Positions 3,868-21,052 of a stretch of DNA of 29,915 bases are shown piece by piece. The notes beneath the pieces were generated by a model. It had not been told where the DNA came from and made no database searches. It worked only from the letters and a program-made list of their open reading frames with translations. The DNA comes from a virus. Where the stretch lies: positions 1 through 29,915 of the IMG/VR virus record IMGVR_UViG_3300026075_000030; one strand, written 5' to 3'. The position numbers were made by a program, and so were the translations under genes. How positions within the stretch are numbered: the first letter of the stretch is position 1; each line of letters opens with the position of its first letter.

Positions 3868-6333
3868 GTGGCCGAGAATCTGCCCACCGCAACATCGTTC
3901 AGTGAGCACCAGCGCGAGATCCTGGCGCGCCGCGCGATCAGCGAGGAAACGGCCTGGTTGGCCGGCGTCACGTCGGTGCCGACCGAGGCCGCATTGCCGC
4001 CCGGCGCGCCGGACTACTGGACGGTAGAGGCCGGGTACCTGCCCGGTCTGCTGTTCCGCTACGTGTCGCCGGACGGCGCCGTGGAGCTTCAGCTCCGGCC
4101 CGACGTGCCGGTGGTCAAGGAGACCAAGGCTGGCAAGCCCGAGGTGGCCAAGTACGTGTTCGCCAAGGGCGCGGCGTCGCTGATCCACGCGGCGCGCCCG
4201 GACGAGTTGGCGCCCGACGTCCTGGTGGTGGAGGGCACGTGCCAGGCCATCGCGGCGGCCACCTACGCGCCCGAGGGATGGGCCGTCTACGGGATCGCCG
4301 GGTGCCAGAGCTGGATGAAGGCCGGCGTGCCGGCGGACCTGGCCGTGGTCGACGGGCGCCGGGTGTTCGTCGTGCTCGACGCGGACGCGGCCACCAACCG
4401 CGCGGTGTACGACGCCGGGGACAAGCTGGCCGGAGCGCTCCGGATGAACGGCGCTCGGGAAGTCCGGTTCGTCCGGCTCCCGGCCGGCGGCAAGGCAGGG
4501 TTGGACGACGTCCTGGGCGGCGCGCCCGAGGTCCGGCGTGCGCGGCTCCTGGAGGGCCTGATCCAGGCCACCGAGGAGGCACGGCCGGCCGACAAGCCCG
4601 GGATGCCAGCCCGGCGCCGGCCGGACGCCAAGACCAAGGCGGCGGCGGCCGACGAGGACGGCGCCGGGTCGCCCTGGTTCGACGCGGACGGCGGTCTCCT
4701 GGTCCAGGAGCTGGCCGGAGCCATCCGGGACCAGCACAGCACCTTGTTGGCGCGCGATGACACCGTGGCCGTCTACCGGGACGGCGTCTACGTGATCGAC
4801 AAGCTGGCCATCCGGGGCGCGATCTCGGACCGGCTGGGCGACGCCTACACCACCGGGCGCCGGGCGAACGTGGAGGAGTTCCTGGTGGCCGAGCTGGCGC
4901 GGCTCGGTGAGCGTCTGCCGGCGTACGCGGACCGGCCGCTGGTGAACTTCCGCAACGGCGTCCTGGACCTGGAGTCAGGCGACTGGCTGGAGCATGACCC
5001 CAAGTTCGCCAGCACGCACCAGCTCACCGTGCCGTGGGAACCGGACGCCGTGTGCCCGCTGTTCGACCAGTGGCTGGTGGAGTCGGCCGGCACCCAGGCT
5101 CCGGCGCTCCTGGAGGCTGCCAGCGTCCTGCTGGACCCGTCCGTGAGTCCGACCAAGGCCCTGTTCCTGTTCGGCCCGGCACGGTCCGGCAAGTCCACGT
5201 TCCTCCGGCTCCTGGAGGCCCTGGTGGGCCCCGAGCACGTGGCCGGGGTGTCGCTCCACGCGCTGTCCGATGATCATTTCGCGGCGGCCAATCTCTACGG
5301 GCGCGTTCTGAATGTGGACGCGGACGTGAAGGCGGCCGATGTGCGCGACCTGTCGTTGTTCAAGAAATTGACAGGCGAGGATGTGATTACGGCCAATCGG
5401 AAGTACGGCGCGCAATTCGAGTTCCGGAACAGGGCGCTGTTCGCATTCTCGGCCAATGAAGTGCCGTCGGTGGGAGAGAACAGCCGCGCCTACGTGGAGC
5501 GCATCGTTCCCATTCTGTTCGGGCGCTCTTTCGCTGGGGCTATTGACGTCACCCTGGAGCCAAGGCTCCGGGCGGAGCTGCCCGGGATCGCCGTGCGGCT
5601 GGTCCGGGCGTGGCAGGAGCGCCGGGCACGCGGGCACGACATCGGGGCGGACCCGCGCGTGGTGGAGCTGTTCGAGACGTCCTCGGACCGGGTGCGGCAA
5701 TGGGTGGCCGACCGGTGCGAGCTGGTGGTGGGTGTCCAGGGTCAACCAGCGTTCGGGGCCACGGTGAGTGAGCTTCATACGGCGTTCCGGTCGTGGGCAC
5801 ATGACGCTGGGGCGGCCGAGCTTGGGCGCAAGGCGTTCGCGGCTCGGCTGGCCGGTGTGGCGGGCGTCCAGGAGGTACGGGAGGACGTCACAAGGCGCCG
5901 AGGGTGGAATGTCCGAGTTCGTCCAGAGAACGCCTGGAGTGACGGGAGTGTCCGAGATGTGTATGAGGCAGTCATGGAAGGGGTGACGGCTACAGGACCA
6001 GGGGCCGGGCAGGTTGGGCAGTTTCAGCCCTATCCTGCCGTCACTGGGGGTACTACATATTCAGACGCGCGAGAAACGGACAAGGGTGACGAGGGGGACG
6101 AAAATACCTATCGTCCCCAGTGCCAGCAGGATAGGGCTGAAACTGCCCAACCTGCCCGGAGTGCCCGGCCACGTACGTCTGTTATCCTGAACGGGATTCA
6201 GGCACTGGCACCGACCAAGGGCCGCCGATGCACCCGGTGCGGGGCCCAGGAGGTGCTGGTGGACGGCCATTGGTTCGCCTGTCCGACCTGCCACCCGGCC
6301 ACGGCCAGGGTCCAGCCCGAGGAGGCTCCGTGA
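3868..6333 (+). CDS. Primase-helicase: TOPRIM (DUF3854-type) plus D5/P4 SF3 helicase plus C-terminal zinc ribbon, 821 aa
   Basis: GTG start with GAGAGGG seven bases upstream. N-terminal TOPRIM: VVEG with E122, and VLDADA with D171/D173. A Pro/Ala/Lys linker (about 240-270) follows. The SF3/D5 helicase has Walker A GPARSGKST (436-444), acidic LNVDADV (481-487), sensor FAFSANEVP (526-533) and a following Arg-rich RIVP segment. It should unwind the origin and support primer synthesis; no archaeo-eukaryotic primase motif is visible, so the priming activity is assumed from family. The C-terminus adds a CTRC/CPTC zinc ribbon (about 783-805) after a low-complexity linker whose DNA forms a 45-bp inverted repeat (6005-6159). 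The codon choice around 5270-5560 is more A/T-rich than its surroundings. The stop overlaps the polymerase start (GTGA). Confidence 0.9.
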   Translation: MAENLPTATSFSEHQREILARRAISEETAWLAGVTSVPTEAALPPGAPDYWTVEAGYLPGLLFRYVSPDGAVELQLRPDVPVVKETKAGKPEVAKYVFAKGAASLIHAARPDELAPDVLVVEGTCQAIAAATYAPEGWAVYGIAGCQSWMKAGVPADLAVVDGRRVFVVLDADAATNRAVYDAGDKLAGALRMNGAREVRFVRLPAGGKAGLDDVLGGAPEVRRARLLEGLIQATEEARPADKPGMPARRRPDAKTKAAAADEDGAGSPWFDADGGLLVQELAGAIRDQHSTLLARDDTVAVYRDGVYVIDKLAIRGAISDRLGDAYTTGRRANVEEFLVAELARLGERLPAYADRPLVNFRNGVLDLESGDWLEHDPKFASTHQLTVPWEPDAVCPLFDQWLVESAGTQAPALLEAASVLLDPSVSPTKALFLFGPARSGKSTFLRLLEALVGPEHVAGVSLHALSDDHFAAANLYGRVLNVDADVKAADVRDLSLFKKLTGEDVITANRKYGAQFEFRNRALFAFSANEVPSVGENSRAYVERIVPILFGRSFAGAIDVTLEPRLRAELPGIAVRLVRAWQERRARGHDIGADPRVVELFETSSDRVRQWVADRCELVVGVQGQPAFGATVSELHTAFRSWAHDAGAAELGRKAFAARLAGVAGVQEVREDVTRRRGWNVRVRPENAWSDGSVRDVYEAVMEGVTATGPGAGQVGQFQPYPAVTGGTTYSDARETDKGDEGDENTYRPQCQQDRAETAQPARSARPRTSVILNGIQALAPTKGRRCTRCGAQEVLVDGHWFACPTCHPATARVQPEEAP
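6005..6159. repeat. Long inverted repeat (45-bp arms, 65-nt centre) inside the primase gene
   Basis: Arms 6005-6049 and 6115-6159 are reverse complements with two mismatches, and the first 34 positions are perfect. Each arm also folds on itself: GGCAGG-nn-GGGC, 7-nt loop, GCCC-nnn-CCTGCC (left arm). The centre (6050-6114) is comparatively A/T-rich. The reading frame stays open through it as a low-complexity linker. Candidate replication origin or protein-binding site (inference). Confidence 0.85.
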
Positions 6334-8300
6334 TTACGCTCCGTGCTCGACTCGGGGGGAAGCCCGTCACGATCAAGGCGCCGGAGCTGGACGAGGACCC
6401 GGCCGGCTGGGTTGAGGTGTTCGCGGCCGACTTCCCAGCCGGCGTACCCCAGCTCGTGGGCCTGGACGTGGAGAGCAGGTACATGGACGGCGCCGGCCCG
6501 TGGGCGGCCGACTGGGCCTGTCGTACCGTCCAGCTCGCGCCTACTGATGACGTCTCCTGGGTGCTCCGGTGCGACGACCTGGACCAGATGATCGTGGCCA
6601 AGAATCTGCTGGAGGACGACGCCAAGGAATTCACCAGCCACACCCAGACCGACCCTCACGCGGTATTGGTGGCGCTCGGCTCGGACATCATGGGGCGGTA
6701 TCTCGACACCCACCCGTTCGCCGTAATGGCCCAGCCCGACGACCGGGCCGGACAGGCCGACCTGAAATCGGTGGCGACGCGGCACGGAATGCCCGAGCTG
6801 GCCGAGGCCGACAAGATGCTGGACGAGTTGTTCGACCAGCTCTATCGCGCGGCCCACCCAGAGATCGGCCGGCGTGCCATCGCGCGCACCAAGCGCGAGC
6901 GTCTGGGGTTCGATACCGTTCCGCTGGACCACCCGACGTTCGTCACCTACGCCGGCCTGGACGCTGTGGCCGTGCGGCGCGTCGCCCCGGTGCTCGTGCG
7001 AGACCTCGGGCGCAAGGGGACGCCGGCTCACCTCCTGGCGAACGAGAGGTGGCTGTCGGAACAGGTGACGCGCGCCAAGGCCCGAGGGCTCCTGATCGAC
7101 CCGGAGCGGCTGGAGGCCATGGAAGCCCGGACGGCGGCGGCCGTCGCACGCGCCACCGAGGAGCTGGTGGCCGTGGCCGGCCTGAAGCCCACCCAGAACG
7201 CCAAGCTGGTGCCGTGGTTCGGGGAGCACATCGCGGGGGGCTGGCCGAGCGACCACCCCAGGACCGAGGGCGGCGCCCCAAGCCTCGGGGACGGCGCCCA
7301 CCACCGGCTGGTCCGGTACGACCTGGACGAGGCCGGAGCGGCGGCCCTGGCGGCCTACAGCCGGTGGCAGGAGGTGAGCAACCAGCACACCCTGGCCGCC
7401 CAGGTGCGCGCGGCCATGGACCCCCGGGGGCTGATCCATCCCACGGTCTACTCGGTGGGCACGATCACCAGCCGGATGTCCTCGGCCGGGCCGAACGCCC
7501 AGAACTGGGCCAAGCCCAAGGAGCTGACCGACGCGGCGCGCGACCAGCGAGAGCTGGTCTTGCCGGGCGACGACCTGGACAACGACGACGATCTGGTGTT
7601 CGTCTCGTGCGACTTCAACCAGGTGGAGTACCGGGGTGCCGCCGCGCTGTCCGGGGAGCCGGTGCTGATAGAGACGATCTTGGCCGGGGGTGACCTGCAC
7701 CAGCTCACGGCCGACCGGATCGGCATCACCCGACAGCACGCCAAGACCGTGAATTTCGCGGTGCTCTACGGGACCGGCGGCGCCAAGCTGGCCAAGATCA
7801 TGAACTACGCGATCACGGAATCCCAGGGCAAGGAGATCGTCCGGGCGTACTGGGACGCCTACCCCCGGCTGTCGGCGCTCCGGGACCGGATGATGGGCCA
7901 GGACGGCGTCCGGCTGTTCTCCGGCCGCTGGGTGCCCACCGGGCGCATCACCAAGGGCGAGAGGGCCGGCCAGGCCACGGTCTGGGCGAACCTGAACTAC
8001 CTGATCCAGGGCAACTGCCGCGAGCTGCTGGTGGGTGCCTGGATGACGGCGCGCCGCACGTTCGACGCGTACCCGGAGTGGCGCGCGGACGTCCGGCTCC
8101 CGGTTCACGACGAGCTGGTGGTCTCGTGCCGGCGGCGCTACGCGGCCGAGGTGTGCGCGGCCCTGGAGGCCGCCATGTCGTTCGAGTTCTTCGGCGTGCC
8201 GATCACGGCCGAGGCCGACGTCTTGGTGGATGAGGCCGGGGTGTCTAGGTGGATGTCGGGCGACATCGCGCGCAAGATCAGAGAGGCCCAGGCCGCGTGA
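6330..8300 (+). CDS. polA: Family A DNA polymerase with 3'-5' exonuclease domain (656 aa)
   Basis: Start GTG overlaps the primase stop (GTGA); the longer in-frame extension overlapping the primase gene is not needed. Exonuclease motifs: LDVES (D45/E47), a possible Exo II Asp in TDPH (D108) and YAGLDA (D211). Polymerase motif A CDFNQVEYR (D428), motif B RQHAKTVNFAVLYG (R468, K472, F476, Y480), motif C PVHDELV (H593, D594). All catalytic residues expected of Pol I are present, and there is no 5' nuclease domain, as is usual for phage enzymes. It should replicate phage DNA with the primase-helicase encoded upstream. The downstream resolvase gene starts within its stop codon. Confidence 0.95.
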   Translation: MITLRARLGGKPVTIKAPELDEDPAGWVEVFAADFPAGVPQLVGLDVESRYMDGAGPWAADWACRTVQLAPTDDVSWVLRCDDLDQMIVAKNLLEDDAKEFTSHTQTDPHAVLVALGSDIMGRYLDTHPFAVMAQPDDRAGQADLKSVATRHGMPELAEADKMLDELFDQLYRAAHPEIGRRAIARTKRERLGFDTVPLDHPTFVTYAGLDAVAVRRVAPVLVRDLGRKGTPAHLLANERWLSEQVTRAKARGLLIDPERLEAMEARTAAAVARATEELVAVAGLKPTQNAKLVPWFGEHIAGGWPSDHPRTEGGAPSLGDGAHHRLVRYDLDEAGAAALAAYSRWQEVSNQHTLAAQVRAAMDPRGLIHPTVYSVGTITSRMSSAGPNAQNWAKPKELTDAARDQRELVLPGDDLDNDDDLVFVSCDFNQVEYRGAAALSGEPVLIETILAGGDLHQLTADRIGITRQHAKTVNFAVLYGTGGAKLAKIMNYAITESQGKEIVRAYWDAYPRLSALRDRMMGQDGVRLFSGRWVPTGRITKGERAGQATVWANLNYLIQGNCRELLVGAWMTARRTFDAYPEWRADVRLPVHDELVVSCRRRYAAEVCAALEAAMSFEFFGVPITAEADVLVDEAGVSRWMSGDIARKIREAQAA

Positions 8301-16617: not shown

Positions 16618-16673
16618 ATCACCCCTGGTCACGGGTGATACGGTGGTCGCTGAACGCCGTATCACCCGTGACC
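16618..16673 (+). terminator. Strong hairpin with an overlapping alternative hairpin before the capsid gene
   Basis: The 17-bp arms 16627-16643 and 16657-16673 pair perfectly (13-nt loop). A weaker 7-bp hairpin (ATCACCC 16618-16624 with GGGTGAT 16633-16639) uses part of the same left arm, so the two folds exclude each other. It could act as a terminator, attenuator or mRNA stabiliser between scaffold and capsid genes. The remaining 88 bases to the capsid start hold only the ribosome-binding site that I can identify. Confidence 0.75.
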
Positions 16674-19489: not shown

Positions 19490-21052
19490 GTGACGTACCT
19501 GATCCTTCCGGCCACGGACGGCGTGACCCCGTACAACGCTGAGAGGGACCAGCACATCCAGCAGGGGATCGCAGACACGGAGACCCTGGCCGCCTCGGGC
19601 ACGACGCTCGGCGCGAGCGCGCTGGCCCTGGCTGGCGCGGCCTACACTCTGGCCGCGAGCGCCAGCTACCCGGACCTGGTGGCCGCGTTCTACACGACGC
19701 CGGCCAGCGGCACGTACCGGGTGATCGGCCACCGGCTCGGGGGTGCGGACCAGTACCCGGAGAACAGCGAGATTGGCTCCCAGAGCGCACTGGAGTCCCA
19801 GGCCGCCGTCGAGATGTCCGCCCAGTGGACCGTGGACGGGCACGGGGTGGTCATGCACGATTCCACCCTGGACCGGACGACGTCCGCCAGCGGCAACCTG
19901 TCGGACTACTCCCTGGCCCAGCTCACCAGCACGGCCCTGGTGGACATCGGGGCGTCGGCGCTGGGCCCTGGCTGGTCAGCCTCCCAGCGGGTGCCGTTGG
20001 TTGGTAACGAGTTGCGCCGCTGGGAGAACCGGGGCGTGATGTTCCTGGAGCCCAAGGCGGACGCCACGAGGACGCTCCGGGCTGCCACAGGCTTCCAGAG
20101 TCCGGGCAACTGGGTGGTCTGGAAGTTCAACCGGGGCGCCAGTGGAGCGCTCCCAAGCCACGCTGTGAACGCCCGGGCGGCCGGTCTGCCTCTCTGGGTG
20201 TACATGACGTCCGGGGACTCCCACAGCTTGATTGACACCGTTCTGGCGACCCTCACGGGGCCGAACGATGCCATCGGTGTGGACGTGGCCGACTCGGACT
20301 CGAACATCGCCTACACCTGCACCCAGGCCGCCGCGCTCGGCGTGACCGTTATCGGGTTCGTGGTCCGGCTACGGTCCGAGCGCGACCGGCTGAAGGCGCT
20401 CGGCGTCAACGCGTTCATGGGGACGGCGCCGCTGTACCTGGTGGACGACCTGGCCCAGTTCACGGTGGATGGTTTCAGTGGAGCCGTACGCCGAGCTGGG
20501 GAGTACGAGGGTGCGTCGAACAAGCTGGTGACGATCGACGGCGCGAACGGGGTGGTGGCTCTCTCCCAGGGCACCACGGCCACCCTGTCCATGGGGTCCA
20601 TGTGCCCGGTGCCGGACCCGGGAGCCTCGGCCAACGGCTACCGAATCTCGTTCGGAATGCGCTGGAACACGCTTCCGGCGTCCACCGAGCACTCGGACGT
20701 CTACTTCGGCCACACCAGTGACGAGCCGTACGCGCACCAGGCCACCACGAACAAGAACGGGTACCATTTCGTGTTCCGGGGCTCGGGAAGCCTGGAGCTG
20801 TTCACCCACACGGCCGGGGTGTCCAGCGGCACGTCGCTCGGGAGCGCGGCCACCACGGCGCCGGCCTCGGGGGCCTGGATGACCTTCCAGATCGATGTCA
20901 CACCCACCCAGGTGATCGTGCGCCGTACCGACGTCGGACCGACGTCCGTCACGGCCAACGACACATCGCGGCGCGGAGGGTACTTCGGGCTGGCGTCTGG
21001 CAGCTCCTCTCAGGCACCGCAGTTCCGGGACATCACGGTGGCCGCCCTGTGA
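19490..21052 (+). CDS. GDPD-domain protein with C-terminal LamG/jelly-roll-like domain (520 aa)
   Basis: GTG start three bases after the previous stop, weak ribosome site. Residues about 75-300 match glycerophosphodiester phosphodiesterases: IGHR (H81, R82), YPEN (E91, N92), E108, DG-HGVVMHD (H123, D124), LDRTT-x-x-x-G (R129-G135), and FLEPKAD (E187, K189). The canonical E-x-D metal site reads EMS, so the Asp is replaced by Ser. The last 190 residues look like a concanavalin/LamG beta sandwich. Phage GDPD proteins are thought to attack teichoic acids or to bind the cell surface. Its position among head-tail connector genes is odd. A virion-attached depolymerase or receptor-binding protein is the best guess. 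Confidence 0.75.
   Translation: MTYLILPATDGVTPYNAERDQHIQQGIADTETLAASGTTLGASALALAGAAYTLAASASYPDLVAAFYTTPASGTYRVIGHRLGGADQYPENSEIGSQSALESQAAVEMSAQWTVDGHGVVMHDSTLDRTTSASGNLSDYSLAQLTSTALVDIGASALGPGWSASQRVPLVGNELRRWENRGVMFLEPKADATRTLRAATGFQSPGNWVVWKFNRGASGALPSHAVNARAAGLPLWVYMTSGDSHSLIDTVLATLTGPNDAIGVDVADSDSNIAYTCTQAAALGVTVIGFVVRLRSERDRLKALGVNAFMGTAPLYLVDDLAQFTVDGFSGAVRRAGEYEGASNKLVTIDGANGVVALSQGTTATLSMGSMCPVPDPGASANGYRISFGMRWNTLPASTEHSDVYFGHTSDEPYAHQATTNKNGYHFVFRGSGSLELFTHTAGVSSGTSLGSAATTAPASGAWMTFQIDVTPTQVIVRRTDVGPTSVTANDTSRRGGYFGLASGSSSQAPQFRDITVAAL

Follow-up and report, generated by a model that had tools for sequence, protein, structure and literature searches.

Mirrored pairs of 9-bp iterons within a phage primase-helicase gene form a predicted replication site

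A long inverted repeat inside the P4-family primase-helicase gene of a soil phage is very probably a cis-acting replication site, either an origin or a partner site comparable to the crr of satellite phage P4, bound by the primase-helicase encoded around it. The repeat lies in the window, by which we mean the whole 29,915-nucleotide (29.9-kb) stretch of an incomplete virus record that was analysed here. An earlier note on this DNA had proposed a candidate origin tied to a P4-type primase-helicase, and the proposal is supported by a layout shared with the origin of the archaeal plasmid pRN1, with the P4 crr and with the published description of PICI origins.

Results

Paired iterons in an inverted repeat of the primase-helicase gene

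The features of the locus are listed in Table 1. In a search for inverted repeats up to 400 bp apart, the two arms were by far the longest near-perfect inverted repeat in the window, the next best being 31 nt at 81%. Folded as single-stranded DNA, the repeat reached -60.2 kcal/mol compared with -23.0 (sd 2.9) for shuffled sequences (z = -12.7), and folded as RNA it reached -102.7 compared with -52.2 (z = -13.3), with no shuffle equally stable in either case. Only 0.15% of all 65-nt windows are as AT-rich as the centre. Two 45-bp arms with two mismatches around a 65-nt A/T-richer centre had been described before, and that description stands. The further proposal that the single arms are imperfect hairpins in their own right has marginal support (z = -2.2 and -1.25), and the arm is better described as two direct 9-bp iterons. 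The GGGCAG cores of these are found at 6007-6012 and 6016-6021 and are mirrored at 6143-6148 and 6152-6157; moreover, the best self-shift of the arms is 9 bp, matching the iteron spacing. No second copy of the iteron pair was found in the 29.9-kb fragment, and its GC skew has no inflection at the element, the skew of an incomplete fragment being uninformative.

Table 1. Features of the primase-helicase locus, in window coordinates.
Feature	Coordinates	Strand	Basis
P4-family primase-helicase ORF, 821 aa, contains the element in frame	3868..6333	+	TIGR01613, D5_N, DUF5906, phrog_16213
primase_Cterm (D5/SF3-type helicase) region, aa 359-657	4942..5838	+	profile match
Winged-helix domain (predicted), likely iteron-binding	5683..5925	+	confident structure model
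Disordered linker, aa 708-784, pLDDT under 50, holds the repeat	5989..6219	+	structure prediction
Left arm of inverted repeat	6005..6049	+	repeat search; DNA fold z -12.7
Iteron 1, left arm, CGGGCAGGT	6006..6014	+	iteron search and alignment with relatives
Iteron 2, left arm, TGGGCAGTT, 9 bp after iteron 1	6015..6023	+	iteron search and alignment
Inner box CCCTATCCTGCC	6028..6039	+	CCCT-type boxes after iterons in several relatives, comparison by eye
Centre, AT-richer, candidate melting region	6050..6114	.	51% GC vs 70% for window
Right arm, 43/45 complementary to left arm	6115..6159	-	repeat search
Iteron 2, right arm, mirrored	6141..6149	-	iteron search and alignment
Iteron 1, right arm, mirrored	6150..6158	-	iteron search and alignment
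Cys-rich zinc-ribbon-like tail (CTRC...CPTC)	6229..6291	+	translation
Family A DNA polymerase gene, overlaps primase stop	6330..8300	+	PF00476 1.1e-36

The product of the gene carrying the repeat scored 140.7 bits against TIGR01613 (primase_Cterm), above the curated cut-off of 108.7, and its predicted helicase structure was best matched by the SaPI5 primase-helicase (Z = 30.1). The C-terminal domain was modelled with confidence over its residues 70-150. For the winged-helix model, the P4 origin-binding domain 1ka8 gave a match at Z = 8.8 (rmsd 2.9, 79 aligned), level with the RFX DBD, while unrelated winged-helix rows score under 6. This match came from a second look with VIA and not from Foldseek, which alone returned no match with E < 0.001 and did not have 1ka8 among its best 50. 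A sequence-based search for a solved structure of the C-terminal part returned nothing useful. The inverted repeat encodes approximately residues 713-764; the segment is in frame and lies within the predicted disordered linker, ahead of the Cys-rich tail. The repeat is probably tolerated inside the ORF because this linker is disordered, only an open frame being required.

Elsewhere in the window, and near the replication genes, a 301-aa protein encoded on the minus strand (1675-2580) matches the phrog_6247 DNA topoisomerase (1.6e-102). A terminator-like inverted repeat of 22 nt with a 3-nt loop (16627-16673) lies between two head-region genes, and a 520-aa structural-region protein (19490-21052) appears by eye to contain a glycerophosphodiester phosphodiesterase-like domain.

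The repeat is kept in relatives while its sequence changes

Relatives of the primase were drawn from viral contigs, genomes and phages. The strongest inverted repeat of the relative's own locus falls within the 410 bp after the winged helix in 17 of 33 cases, each locus being judged against its own control windows (1153 in total, 99th percentile 16.5) and the 17 including some close pairs. An eighteenth relative with a repeat at that place (L041) was recognised by eye. Iteron cores differ between relatives, GGGCAG in the window being replaced by TGGCAG, AGGCAG, CGGCAG or TGTGGG, and most relatives have a common plan of two 9-bp iterons, often a CCCT-type box, and then a centre of 49-109 nt. 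Of 26 elements, 18 had 9 bp as their best spacing (null 0.11); in L030, L034 and L037 the spacing was closer to 8 bp, and a clear 9-bp repeat was not found in the arms of L013/L015. No DNA similarity of the element or of the gene end to public phages was detected, and the exact arm sequence was not found in viral contigs. In the closest relative (L005/L025, 66% identity) the primase contains several frame breaks, probably assembly errors, leaving the frame across the element uncertain.

Thirteen loci were aligned on their iterons; for one of them (L023) the left arm in the alignment is not the true arm but an additional iteron pair of that locus, close to the primase ORF start. Pairing holds across iteron positions 1-18 in nearly all of these loci and most of the positions have 2-4 different letters, matched in both arms, with positions 2 and 11 changing jointly in all four iteron copies. 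The inner stem is much looser than the iterons. Covariation between the winged helix and the iterons was borderline (Mantel p = 0.05). Arm covariation in relatives had been named beforehand as a test of the origin proposal, and it turned out in its favour, as complementarity and paired iterons persist with concerted changes. A linker kept with its complementarity lost had been named as the contrary outcome; the opposite was seen, in that linker peptides differ and complementarity persists.

The position of the element relative to the gene also varies. Depending on the relative, the iteron core begins at codon position 1, 2 or 3, and the peptides encoded by the iterons are accordingly GQVGQF in the window, VAEVAE in L018 (similar in others) and GGRSGR in L017. 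The element is found just past the stop codon in L016, spans the stop in L018, and lies in the linker of a helicase-polymerase fusion in L023 and L038. A fusion ORF of primase and polymerase in a gammaproteobacterial MAG (L044, 5350-5670) has a linker with many GGTCGGCACTTTT repeats in both orientations. In a second branch (group B: Woodruffvirus and kin) no repeat was found behind the primase gene. Here, long inverted repeats precede the primase ORF by about 140-610 bp, that of L028 overlapping its ORF start as drawn stop to stop. These elements vary, several having 9-bp iterons and several being without clear 9-bp spacing. In Streptomyces phage Mischief19 (L007, 4400-4724) inverted arms of 116 nt, with 93 nt between them, lie upstream of the primase gene and contain GCATGCTCWGTGAA-like repeats of approximately 14 bp, a candidate Woodruffvirus origin.

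Concerted change of the iterons, together with their occurrence in three frames, after the stop and upstream of the gene, favours a protein-binding DNA site over a peptide or an RNA. An RNA-level element would consist of a 45-bp mRNA stem tuning translation of either the primase tail or the polymerase encoded downstream, and both the very stable RNA fold and the overlap of the polymerase start with the primase stop suit such a role. However, a stem alone needs no four-copy iteron pattern, the inner stem is not conserved in relatives, the site may stand past the stop, across it or, in another branch, upstream of the gene, and no terminator-like site was found. We therefore regard an RNA element as improbable. 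The cruciform or RNA control that the earlier note gave as its alternative is likewise weakened, since conservation is stronger in the iterons than in the inner stem, and since the site can follow the stop or precede the gene.

Binding of the iterons by the primase or another regulator could alternatively serve transcription control with no role in initiation. Iterons often serve both as replication-initiation sites and as operators, which counts for this reading, as do the location of group B elements within a divergent intergenic region and an extra lone copy of the iteron pair beside the primase ORF start in L023 (3166-3181), which is perhaps an operator. Against it, the group A element is found at the 3′ end of the gene or behind it, no sigma-70-like promoter was found near the element in the window, and the same layout is required for replication in pRN1 (PMC4234260). 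An operator alone seems to us just as improbable as an RNA element.

A mobile-element remnant (MITE-like) or recombination site would account for long inverted repeats at the two ends of a short centre, but is highly improbable, given that relatives have another repeat in this position, its iterons changed in concert, and that no target duplication is evident in the flanks. Constraint at the protein level, with the repeat encoding a conserved linker peptide, fits its in-frame position but is refuted by the differing reading frames, the iterons being read in all three and the linker being predicted as disordered.

Searches independent of homology to the window primase

Viral contigs were searched with the two-arm iteron pattern, which gave seven matches, four of them beside a P4-family primase. 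These four are three known relatives and L110, a contig with a P4-family PrimPol-helicase that had been missed by homology. A P4-family primase was not detected in the other matches: L108 and L111, which are short contigs, and L109, whose 17-kb record is possibly partial. A one-arm pattern, TGGCAGTTGTGGCAGTT, was rejected as a marker: nearly all of its 40 matches were unrelated coding repeats and a single arm is therefore not specific.

Ten P4-family loci from actinobacterial genomes were picked regardless of repeats, one of which (L126) was already known. An inverted repeat is present in 7 of the 10, and in 6 of these 7 the strongest repeat is located on the 3′ side of the helicase, at a distance of no more than 450 bp (p = 2e-5); by the ungapped method, no such repeat was found in L128, L130 and L133. 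Inverted repeats were also found directly after the primase stop in an Acidithiobacillus and a Streptococcus phage. The ungapped method, which overlooks even the irregular crr of P4, detected no comparable repeat near the primase in regions from phages N15, PY54 and 9NA and from Vibrio and Staphylococcus phages.

Comparison with known systems

P4, like the window, has a P4-family primase-helicase with a C-terminal winged helix. The P4 record places crr immediately downstream of the alpha gene. Type I repeats are annotated there at 4314 and 4323, a spacing of 9 bp, and about 35 bp further on come the inverted copies (4366 and 4384). In the window, too, iterons spaced by approximately 9 bp have inverted counterparts close to the primase-helicase gene, and its modelled C-terminal winged helix has the P4 origin-binding fold. 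In contrast to the window element, crr lies outside the gene, is duplicated, is separate from ori and has the iterons TGTTCACC; its spacing is less regular and it consequently forms no long stem. P4 needs both ori and crr, and therefore the window element could be only one of two sites.

In pRN1, a stem-loop of 100 bp immediately after the primase-helicase gene forms the origin and is required for replication, and the shape of such stem-loops is conserved among relatives while their sequence is not (PMC4234260). The window also has a large stem-loop directly 3′ of the SF3 helicase-winged helix, of which shape and not sequence is kept. The pRN1 stem-loop differs in being noncoding, in its shorter stem of 21 nt and in the archaeo-eukaryotic-type primase domain of its protein. 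The authors who described it mention no iterons, and they suggest that phages have stem-loops of a similar type (PMC4234260). Read here from sequence, each stem arm of pRN1 (L135, 5084-5183), pRN2 (L136) and pHEN7 (L137) appears to contain two 9-bp iterons, which differ in concert between the plasmids (TGTCC, GGAC and TGTCAC) and go unmentioned in the part of the pRN1 paper available to us. These three short arms provide a strong lead in support. Taken together, one description of a shared layout would cover the window element, the P4 crr and the pRN1 origin.

A PICI origin is described as an AT-rich region, directly 3′ of rep, with a set of iterons on either side (PMC6092414). The window has this layout within the ORF itself, whereas PICI/SaPI origins lie outside the gene and belong to satellite islands, not phages; the likeness is to the layout as described. 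The window itself is not a PICI, as its terminase, portal, major head and tape-measure genes are those of a phage. In SCCmec, the C-terminal domain of the Cch2 helicase binds direct repeats downstream of its own gene (PMC7581432); these differ from the window element in being three direct repeats (AAGTG) that are not inside the gene. For N15 and PY54, repA alone suffices for circular plasmid replication (PMC10612081), so there is a precedent for an origin within the gene beside a P4-like primase, although no iteron inverted repeat comparable to that of the window was found in repA by the ungapped method.

Discussion

The iteron pairs, their persistence with concerted change and their link to the gene family were read from sequence, and the winged-helix fold from a structure prediction. 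We infer from these that the C-terminal winged helix of the primase-helicase would recognise the 9-bp iterons. Since the two pairs are oriented towards one another, with the AT-richer centre between them, a pair of helicase hexamers may assemble on them head to head. The hexamers would then melt the centre and start bidirectional forks, the primase-helicase itself presumably priming and the adjacent PolA extending, so that the origin would fire.

Origins of this kind are already known. Their embedding in coding sequence and the shared rule of paired 9-bp iterons are new, as far as a limited literature search shows, and no direct report of iterons inside phage primase genes was found in the open-access literature. 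Whether inverted, paired 9-bp iterons around a melting region are the general cis-partner of the D5/P4-type primase-helicase clade, spanning archaeal plasmids (pRN1, pRN2 and pHEN7), satellites and actinophages, is a reading to which we give an even chance. If true, the 'stem-loop origin' of pRN1 would in fact be an origin of the iteron type, with the hairpin following incidentally from the inverted arrangement, the origin would move freely into and out of coding sequence in many phages, and the shared mechanism would be head-to-head loading on mirrored iterons, as in SV40 or papillomavirus. The result also points to a means of deciding between stem-loop and iteron function at pRN1-type origins.

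For uncultivated actinophages, these data provide a concrete origin prediction, in which the predicted origin is kept within coding sequence by means of a disordered linker, sometimes between the halves of a helicase-polymerase fusion. The rule of two 9-bp iterons per arm, mirrored and next to a P4-family primase-helicase, could be used to locate, by sequence alone, the origins of many phages, satellites and plasmids.
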